Under the pieces are notes generated by a model that saw only the letters and a list, made by a program, of their open reading frames with translations, did no database searches and was not told where the DNA came from. A program made the translations under genes and the position numbers. From NCBI GenBank assembly GCA_016870515.1, contig VGBL01000024.1, positions 1-33,601 on the forward strand: a stretch of DNA of 33,601 nt. The letters are read 5' to 3'. This DNA comes from Actinomycetota bacterium. Lineage in GTDB: Bacteria > Actinomycetota > Actinomycetes > S36-B12. Of the stretch, positions 26,490 through 28,741 are shown piece by piece. How positions within the stretch are numbered: position 1 is the stretch's first letter; the number at the start of each line of letters is the position of its first letter.

Positions 26490-27584
26490 CTAATGGTGGG
26501 CGATGGGGAGGGTGCCCAGATCGTGCTCGATGATGTCCCGGTCCTCGTTGTCGAGGTCGACGGCGATGCGATAGGCGAGGTTGCGTTGCTCGCGAGCGGC
26601 GTCCATATCGCCGAGCATGGCGTACGCGCGGGCCATCGCCTCATGTGCCGAGGCCGGTATGAAGTCCTCCACGCGTTCGGACTCGGCGATGTCGAGGCAG
26701 CGCTGCGCGTGGAGTAGGGCGAGGTCGCCGTGGCCGAGCACCGCGTGGACGCGACTGCACTGCCACTCGCCGATCGCCCACTGGGAGGCTGCACCGACGC
26801 GTCGCCAGTGCCACAGGCTCGCCTCCGCCGTGGCCACCATGGCCTCATCGTGAATGGCGGTGCGCGCATCCATGTCGAGGTAGGTCCACGTGAGGTGGAA
26901 CAGGTCCATCGCGATCTGGCGCTCGCTTTCGATCGACAGGGTGTCGGTGCCGAGGCCGGTGATGATGCGCGGGCCGGCGGGGGTGTGGTAGGCGGCGATC
27001 AGGTGGGGGGTGAGATCCGCGGAGACGGCGATGGGGCCCACTGCGCCGAGGGAGTCCAGGTGGCGGCGCACGCGATCGACATCGGGGTGGGCCAGGGTCA
27101 GCGAGATCAGGCGCGCCTCGCTCGCGGGGAGGCGGAGCGCAACGGGGTCGCCGTCCCATTCGATGATGTGCGGCCCCACTCCGTCGAGGGGGAGTCCGCC
27201 ATCGGCGGGAAGGGTGATGCGCCAGGTGAGCGCATCGCGCGCCATCTCGGTGACGGCCCCGGGCGCTTCGGTGCTCGCACTTGCCGTCGCCGCGATGTCG
27301 GGGGAGCGCAGCACCCAGGTGGCCAGGTGTGTCTCCTGCGCGTGATCGAGGTCGAACCAGCGGGGGCGGTCGGGTGCCGGGGCGGCGGGGTCGATGGCGA
27401 TGACCTCGGCGTAGGTCGACTCGCCCGTGCGCACGACGCGGTTGTGCGTTGCCATCCGCGCGTGCGCACCGCCGCCAGCGACGGGGACCCCCAGCCGTTT
27501 GTCGAGCCACGTCGCTCCTGCCTCGAGGTCCGGTGACGTGACGACCACATGATCGATAACGGTGGGTGGCACGGGCTCGGGCAC
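26490..27584 (-). CDS. VOC/glyoxalase-like domain fused to a C-terminal helical-repeat domain
   Basis: A 364-residue two-part protein. Residues 8-212 look like a glyoxalase-like VOC domain: IDHVVVTSPDLEAGATWL, a central PRWFDLD, and a second half with ARLISLTLAHPD. Residues 222-360 are all helical and TPR-like (FHLTWTYLDMDART, then WAIGEWQCSRVHAVLG, then AMARAYAMLGDMDAAREQR). As I recall, this second part occurs alone as a short actinobacterial protein. The role of either half is unknown. The start is GTG at 27584 with TAGCCT six bases before it, so leaderless. It is divergent from the TauE gene with only 41 bases between. Confidence 0.8.
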   Translation of the reverse strand: MPEPVPPTVIDHVVVTSPDLEAGATWLDKRLGVPVAGGGAHARMATHNRVVRTGESTYAEVIAIDPAAPAPDRPRWFDLDHAQETHLATWVLRSPDIAATASASTEAPGAVTEMARDALTWRITLPADGGLPLDGVGPHIIEWDGDPVALRLPASEARLISLTLAHPDVDRVRRHLDSLGAVGPIAVSADLTPHLIAAYHTPAGPRIITGLGTDTLSIESERQIAMDLFHLTWTYLDMDARTAIHDEAMVATAEASLWHWRRVGAASQWAIGEWQCSRVHAVLGHGDLALLHAQRCLDIAESERVEDFIPASAHEAMARAYAMLGDMDAAREQRNLAYRIAVDLDNEDRDIIEHDLGTLPIAHH

Positions 27585-27590
27585 GCGAGC

Positions 27591-27600
27591 AGGCTAACGT
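27591..27600. promoter_or_regulatory. overlapping divergent -10 boxes of the VOC and TauE genes
   Basis: On the minus strand TAGCCT (27591-27596) is six bases from the VOC GTG. On the plus strand TAACGT (27595-27600) is placed for a short leader before the TauE ATG. The two boxes share two bases, so the polymerases may exclude each other. Confidence 0.4.
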
Positions 27601-27625
27601 CGGCGCCTTCGGCGAAAGGACGCGG

Positions 27626-28441
27626 ATGGATGCGACGGCGGGCGGCCCGAGGCTGCTGCTGACCTATGTCGGGGCGGGTGCGCTGGCCGGCACCCTCTCG
27701 GGGCTCCTCGGCGTCGGCGGGGGAATCGTCCTCGTGCCGCTGCTCGTGCTTGTCCTGAAGTGGGAGCACAAGCCGGCCCAGGCGACCGCTCTCGTCCTTG
27801 TCTCGATGGCCGCGCTCGCCGGGGTCTGTGGCTACGCCCTGTCGGGGGACGTGGCCGTCGTCCCGGCCCTGTTCATCCTGATCGGTGGCCTCGTCGGTGC
27901 GTGGGTCGGCGCGATCGTCGTGCAGCGCGTGCACTCGTACGTGCTTCAAGTGGCCTTTGGCATGGTGATGATTGCCGCGGCCGTTCGCCTCGCCTGGCCG
28001 GTGGGACCCGGCGGCGTGCCCATCGATTCGTCCCCGGCCCTGACGCCGGCGCTCACCGTCGCCTTCGTCGTCAGTGGCCTGGCCATGGGCCTGCTCTCCG
28101 CTCTCTTCGGCATCGGTGGCGGCATCGTGCTGGTCCCGATACTCGTCACCCTGCTGGACTTCGATCAAAAGCTCGCGGCTGGCACCTCGCTGGCCGTCAT
28201 GATCCCGATTGCCCTGCTCGGCGCGCTTCGACTGTCGCGAGCGGGGCTGACCCAGTGGTCCGCGGGATGGCGCATCGGCCTGGGCGGACTCGTCGGCGGA
28301 CTCGTCGGCGCCCAAATGGCACTGCGGCTGCCCACCGAGGTGCTCGCTTGGATCTTCGGTGCGCTCCTGGTGTTCGTGGGGGCTCGGATGATCTGGACAG
28401 GCGTGCGCACGGGACGGGAACTGCGCGAATCGCCTGTTTGA
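27626..28441 (+). CDS. TauE/SafE family sulfite/anion exporter
   Basis: A 271-residue protein with eight or so hydrophobic segments in two halves. Each half starts with the TauE/SafE motif: GLLGVGGGIVLVPLL (about 27-41) and ALFGIGGGIVLVPIL (about 160-174). Family members export sulfite, sulfoacetate or other organosulfur anions, or act as general anion permeases; the substrate is not decided here. The ATG at 27626 is chosen because AAAGGA stands five bases before it; an in-frame GTG at 27566 would overlap the divergent gene. It is alone and followed by a hairpin (28463-28486). Confidence 0.9.
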   Translation: MDATAGGPRLLLTYVGAGALAGTLSGLLGVGGGIVLVPLLVLVLKWEHKPAQATALVLVSMAALAGVCGYALSGDVAVVPALFILIGGLVGAWVGAIVVQRVHSYVLQVAFGMVMIAAAVRLAWPVGPGGVPIDSSPALTPALTVAFVVSGLAMGLLSALFGIGGGIVLVPILVTLLDFDQKLAAGTSLAVMIPIALLGALRLSRAGLTQWSAGWRIGLGGLVGGLVGAQMALRLPTEVLAWIFGALLVFVGARMIWTGVRTGRELRESPV

Positions 28442-28462
28442 GGGCGTTCCTTACGACTTCAT

Positions 28463-28486
28463 GGGGGATTGCATGAGACGTCCCCC
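28463..28486 (+). terminator. hairpin after the TauE gene, possible terminator
   Basis: GGGGGA (28463-28468) pairs with TCCCCC (28481-28486) around a 12-base loop, 22 bases after the TauE stop. There is no T run, so termination is only a guess; it may instead belong to the RNA region that follows. Confidence 0.35.
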
Positions 28487-28530
28487 TGAACCTTGGAGTT
28501 TCTCCCGTGGCCCAGGGGCGGCGTTCGGGT

Positions 28531-28600
28531 TACGGTAGGAGCACCCCTCGTCAGATCCCCCCCGAACTGGCGAGGGGTCCTTCCATGCCCGCCTAGGTCA
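28531..28600 (+). ncRNA. candidate small RNA with C-rich loop (6C-like), about 28543 onward
   Basis: A 12-base-pair stem (28543-28554 with 28567-28578, one G-T wobble) holds a 12-base loop containing seven consecutive C (28557-28563). TACGGT (28531-28536) stands six bases before the first stem base, as a -10 box would. The actinobacterial 6C RNA has hairpins with runs of six or more C in the loop. Only one such hairpin is seen here, and the downstream end is not clear. The 300-base gap between the TauE and SGNH genes holds otherwise only the weak short frame at 28593-28673. Confidence 0.4.
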
Positions 28601-28673
28601 GTGGCCGGGGGTAGCGATCGCGGAGCAGTTCGAACTCCAACAGCAGGCGCTCATCGTGATCGGTGAGGGCCAC
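28593..28673 (-). CDS. possible 26-residue peptide, low confidence
   Basis: A GTG at 28673 opens 26 codons (LTDHDERLLLEFELLRDRYP in the middle) ending in TAG, with GC-rich third positions and a weak GGGAG overlapping the start. It could be a small protein or the end of a lost gene. I recognise no family. Confidence 0.2.
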   Translation of the reverse strand: MALTDHDERLLLEFELLRDRYPRPLT

Positions 28674-28741
28674 TCCCGCGTGCAGCGCCGAGTGGGTAGC
28701 GACCCGCCGGTTGGGGTTACGCCGCAGGGCGCCCCGAGGTC

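Follow-up and report, generated by a model that had tools for sequence, protein, structure and literature searches.

A conserved C-loop hairpin between tauE and pucR in an actinobacterial genus: a candidate one-armed, relocated 6C-type small RNA

The DNA analysed here, a stretch of 33,601 nucleotides from an Actinomycetota bacterium (hereafter, the window), contains a stable hairpin with a run of cytosines in its loop, located behind a transporter gene and directly downstream of a promoter-like box. The question raised by this locus is whether the hairpin is the product of a gene of its own and, if so, whether it belongs with the 6C small RNAs of actinobacteria, as a preliminary description had suggested. 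Judging from sequence comparison, we put the probability at close to two in three that positions 28531-28590 are a free-standing gene for a 6C-type small RNA, one-armed and relocated, that would pair with G-rich ribosome-binding sites.

The hairpin, the predicted body of the small RNA, occupies 28543-28578 on the + strand, with stem arms at 28543-28554 and 28567-28578 and a predicted RNA 5' end at 28543. Folding from this position gives -23.7 kcal/mol (z -5.1), which is equalled by 0 of 200 shuffles. The loop motif GATCCCCCCCGAAC (28554-28567, +), the predicted seed, holds the seven C first described as lying in the loop; the run is indeed seven long (28557-28563), but in the fold six of them are unpaired and the first C pairs with G. 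The -10-type box TACGGT, of the form TAnnnT, is found at 28531-28536 (+), and the stem starts at 28543, the seventh base after it, exactly as originally noted. A hairpin scan of both strands identified this as the sole hairpin of the window with a C6+ loop and 8+ pairs. Its score is matched by one of 200 dinucleotide-shuffled windows and is thus, alone, only moderately rare, so the case is carried by comparison with relatives. The + strand of the window has 17 TAnnnT sites in all. Between 28300 and 28800, neither a sigma-70-type box pair nor a -35 box was found, and there is no terminator-like site on either strand; the 3' tail (28579-28590, +) has no T run, and the relatives were judged by eye in this respect.

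The hairpin has been found by DNA search in five of 40 relatives, all of the same genus and with the window's own genome counted, and searching all 11 genomes of the genus for the motif adds a sixth, G010. A covariance model built from these six orthologues recovers the same six in the genus. The hairpin is therefore present in 6/11 genus genomes, each time between tauE and pucR, which corresponds to all six genomes with a readable tauE-pucR interval and to six of the seven with readable bases behind tauE. Behind tauE, G001 and G002 run into a contig end, and a search at E 1e-15 gave no transporter match for G005 or G009. G004 has 173 readable bases behind tauE with no such hairpin on the + strand, and no PucR match. 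On the reverse strand of this genome, a C6-loop hairpin in the opposite orientation has been observed directly behind the TauE gene (L127, G004:C222).

The 14-base loop motif, GAT-C6/7-GAAC, is exact in five of the six orthologues, which have C7, and one C shorter in the other, which has C6. Both partners have changed in 7 of the 15 stem pairs, and 96.6% of the cells are paired, in what is a small set of six sequences. Neither the both-side-change count nor the share of paired cells is reached by any of 500 shuffles, while another of the five covariation measures, the count of further pair types, is reached by 80 of 500. A TAnnnT box lies 23-27 bases before the loop motif in five of the six (TACGGT, TAGCGT, TACGGT, TACCGT and TACGGT), its middle bases varying, and when transcription is taken to start six bases downstream of the box, the RNA opens with the first base of the stem in each of the five folds. 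The box of G010 (TAGGGT) is farther away, 49 bases upstream, with a small 5' hairpin lacking a C run in between. A conserved RNA element on the + strand is well supported by this pattern of sequence change. A DNA-level element, for example a protein-binding inverted repeat, would agree with an inverted repeat at an intergenic site and with the partly shared blocks further upstream, but three cells are U-G pairs when read as the + strand and would become A-C on the opposite one, the conserved loop is asymmetric, and the covariance model has a single match in the window's genome (G000). We regard this explanation as very improbable.

All six orthologues lie in one neighbourhood, formed by a glyoxalase-like gene, the TauE/SafE gene, the hairpin and a PucR-type gene, followed, where the sequence reaches, by an SGNH-like gene, a name assigned without a Pfam match. 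In the window, the TauE/SafE-type transporter gene is at 27566-28441 (+; PF01925, E 4.4e-46), with the hairpin downstream, and the PucR-type gene is represented by a C-terminal remnant at 28593-28676 on the - strand, with its stop at 28593 and an open frame that continues to about 28745. The 300-base gap in which the hairpin was first placed does lie between two open reading frames (28442-28741), but its right part contains this remnant, which ends at the stop at 28593. The assignment is based on 25 residues (about 28602-28676) that align to the PucR of G008 with a score of 89 (shuffled maximum 52) and 22 residues that align to that of G007 with a score of 70 (shuffled maximum 50); the alignment to the PucR of G006 scores 54, below the shuffled maximum of 62. 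No PucR match was obtained in the window's genome at E 1e-40, and the gene is full-length and stop-free in five relatives of the genus (G003, G006, G007, G008 and G010).

This arrangement raises the possibility that the hairpin is a transcription terminator common to the convergent tauE and pucR, with an incidental C run. The stem is very stable and GC-rich, in the orthologues it stands in convergent orientation some 10-80 bases past the pucR stop, and tauE of G004 is followed by another hairpin. On the other hand, the window has no T run here on either strand, no part of the element is better conserved than the loop, the TAnnnT box is kept at a near-constant distance, and in G010 another predicted gene, oppositely oriented, separates the hairpin from tauE (by crude gene calling). 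Moreover, hairpin, loop and box are all intact in the window's genome although pucR has decayed to a remnant, which argues against a role solely as the terminator of pucR. A common terminator is, on balance, unlikely.

Outside the genus, the covariance model matches 9 of 85 genomes of the family at E 0.1, and a C-loop is present in seven of these, namely the six orthologues and G055, a member of another genus. In the order of the host, presumably Nanopelagicales, 11 of 166 genomes match at E 0.01, comprising the same seven, G113 and G114 with a C7-loop hairpin, and two without; in the class, 3 of 394 match at E 0.003, and only the window's own match is of this type. The searches at all three scales were run with stricter filters and may miss weak members. 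G113 and G114 belong to another family of the order, and neither tauE nor pucR was matched within 1.5 kb of their hairpin. The C7-loop hairpin recorded for two genomes in another of the order's families (L120:1501-1550, and L121 on the reverse strand) is GGTTCCCCCCCGTCC, and its tail CATGTCCG resembles the CATGCCCG that follows the hairpin in G003, G007 and the window. Two genomes from a different genus of the family (L092, G100:C9; L099, G099:C57) have a long hairpin with CCCCCC in its loop, possibly a further C-loop RNA. Matches in G065, G067, a second place in G006, G107, G119, G394 and G442 were read and rejected, as they have no C6+ loops. A G005 hairpin with a GTTCCCCCCGAAC loop (L162, reverse strand, about 1510-1555) was not counted; by eye, it precedes an RBS-like stretch and an ATG, and it lies beside a TetR-like open reading frame.

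The element of G055 has two C-loops. Its hairpin, GGCCCCTCGCAGGTTCCCCCCCGTACCGCGAGGGGCC, is near-identical to that of G006 and stands after a second C7-loop hairpin and TAGGGT. The resulting RNA with C7 in both loops (L102:3976-4057) scores 30.1 bits with the 6C model (E 0.03 over all families), below the Rfam cut-off, and was not listed by a 6C search of the family's genomes with stricter filters. No tauE match is present in the 4.2 kb examined, though this contig stops 147 bases past the hairpin.

The same relatives bear on whether the hairpin is instead a small RNA derived from the 3' UTR of the tauE mRNA, or a cis element of it, with no promoter of its own. In five of the six orthologues it is on the same strand as tauE and directly downstream of it, and a precedent exists in M. 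tuberculosis, where F6 is described as co-transcribed with the upstream fadA2 (PMC2764107). Such an origin, however, does not account for the conserved box, and it is at odds with the oppositely oriented predicted gene of G010 and with G055, where the C-loop hairpin occurs with no tauE match, though on a contig that ends soon after it. We judge this origin quite unlikely and retain a small RNA with its own start as the preferred reading.

The region between tauE and the box has also been considered. The second hairpin of the preliminary description, at 28458-28490 (+), has a z of -1.9, with 11 of 200 shuffles equally good, and its stem is absent, by eye, from the minimum-energy folds of four relatives. 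The proposal of one conserved stretch from 28460 onwards is therefore not upheld as a unit; the upstream hairpin may be where the transporter mRNA ends. TACGGT was also considered as the 3' arm of an upstream stem, as the window folds in a 150-base stretch, and was rejected on the folds of four relatives, which do not form it. Likewise, a 25-codon open reading frame ending at the TAG behind the box is, by eye, not preserved in G008. Partly common upstream blocks were observed by eye in the window (28458-28518) and in L002-L005, with a TGCAC-like block about 60 bases before the box and TTTCTCC or TTCGACAG 24-33 bases before it. These shared blocks might be activator sites.

If the locus is a small-RNA gene, the following mechanism is plausible. 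The TAnnnT box would direct transcription to begin at the base of the stem, and selection would act on the hairpin as a + strand RNA with a near-invariant C6-7 loop; both steps draw on the comparison of orthologues. A stable RNA of roughly 40-60 nt would then present six single-stranded C in a rigid loop, and these may pair with runs of G at or close to ribosome-binding sites, mostly repressing translation, in the manner of mycobacterial 6C/B11. For B11, pairing of the C-loops with ribosome-binding sites has been described, and in M. abscessus the repression of a reporter survives the mutation of either loop alone and is lost with both (PMC10470900), so one arm can be enough. In the window's genome, CGGGGGG followed by ATG after 3-11 bases occurs at 33 sites, against 18 for the reversed pattern, a weak target signal. 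Of the 30 of these loci that were read, two or three resemble gene starts, and the clearest, that of a PPDK_N protein, is not claimed as a target. If this reading is true, the RNA would act in trans as a bacterial regulator of very small size, its entire recognition part being a fixed GAUC6-7GAAC loop, and a lineage naturally carrying a single arm would put the redundancy of the two 6C loops to an evolutionary test. It would also show that the Rfam models miss C-loop RNAs of uncultured actinobacteria.

With respect to known families, Rfam yields no match above the gathering threshold, for any family, in the window or at the orthologue loci. The check proposed with the first suggestion of a 6C-type RNA, a run of the 6C covariance model, thus came out negative at gathering level; in a permissive search, 6C (RF01066) ranks second at the locus with 17.3 bits (E 9.8), against a threshold of 47. 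None of 40 and none of 85 genomes passes this threshold, and a C. glutamicum control likewise scored below it. The top family at the locus is F6 (RF01791), with 22.6 bits (E 0.14) against a cut-off of 46. F6 is listed for only three of the six orthologues (the window, G008 and G010), an F6 search of the 11 genus genomes places none above the cut-off, and the tauE-pucR locus is not listed for the window's genome. In the same genome, a long perfect palindrome ending GAGAGCCCCGCGACC...GGTCGCGGGGCTCTC and lacking a C-loop (L161, G000:C2:199076-199115) scores higher with the F6 model, at 29.4 bits, and the F6 score at the hairpin therefore says little. At the G010 locus, sodF_sRNA (30.7 bits, E 0.22) stands above F6. 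Other matches of the 6C model in the family (ten loci folded) include some C-loop hairpins, and none except that of G010 is at tauE-pucR.

The gene ssd, which we take to be Rv3660c of M. tuberculosis, served as a reference point for the 6C location. In the window's genome, ssd (TIGR03815) is on contig C1, with no C-loop hairpin within 1.5 kb. Thirty ssd loci, the best matches of 40 genomes, were scanned for C5+ hairpins, and eight gave matches. Five of these, all in sister families, have two 6C-like arms; the RNAs of G025, G030 and G038 reach 39-45 bits with the 6C model, below the cut-off, and those of G034 and G036 come from the hairpin scan. The other three (G029, G027 and G019) have hairpins that are, by eye, unlike 6C, and G019 is the only one among the family's 19 loci. 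The hairpin is thus 6C-like and is best read as a one-armed, relocated 6C-type RNA. The first suggestion stands to the extent that a C-loop RNA with its own start is backed by the near-invariant loop, the covarying stem, the TAnnnT spacing and the relative in G055, but the RNA is no standard 6C member, having one arm, another location and a sub-threshold score. We infer descent from a two-armed 6C-type RNA by loss of the 5' C-loop arm, away from ssd; G010, with its 5' hairpin lacking a C run, is a possible intermediate. More tentatively, and at somewhat less than even odds, these RNAs may constitute a distinct family, in which 6C is reduced to its 3' arm, removed from ssd, and set with the promoter box directly against the stem, G055, G010 and the window type being successive stages.

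The literature searched on small RNAs of the host's order and on 6C RNA in freshwater actinobacteria describes no such RNA and is confined to mycobacterial work. F6 is similar in being a short RNA with a C-rich loop hairpin; it is described with a dominant form of 58 nt and a SigF promoter motif (PMC8557902), and a location at fadA2-fadE5 (PMC8628891). A search by eye for a sigma-F motif at the hairpin revealed none at the proper spacing. The Streptomyces RNAs scr5583 and scr1434, described as conserved and highly expressed with C-rich loops (PMC3765725), are likewise actinobacterial and are likened to the present hairpin by description only. With 6C RNA, the hairpin shares its actinobacterial origin and a stable stem with a C6+ loop, the C6-7 run being found in the single arm present. 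The name 6C refers to two stem-loops (PMC4046766), whereas a single stem follows the box in five of the six orthologues here. Finally, 6C/B11 adjoins ssd, the M. tuberculosis B11 being placed between Rv3660c and Rv3661 (PMC8628891), while the present hairpin lies between tauE and pucR.
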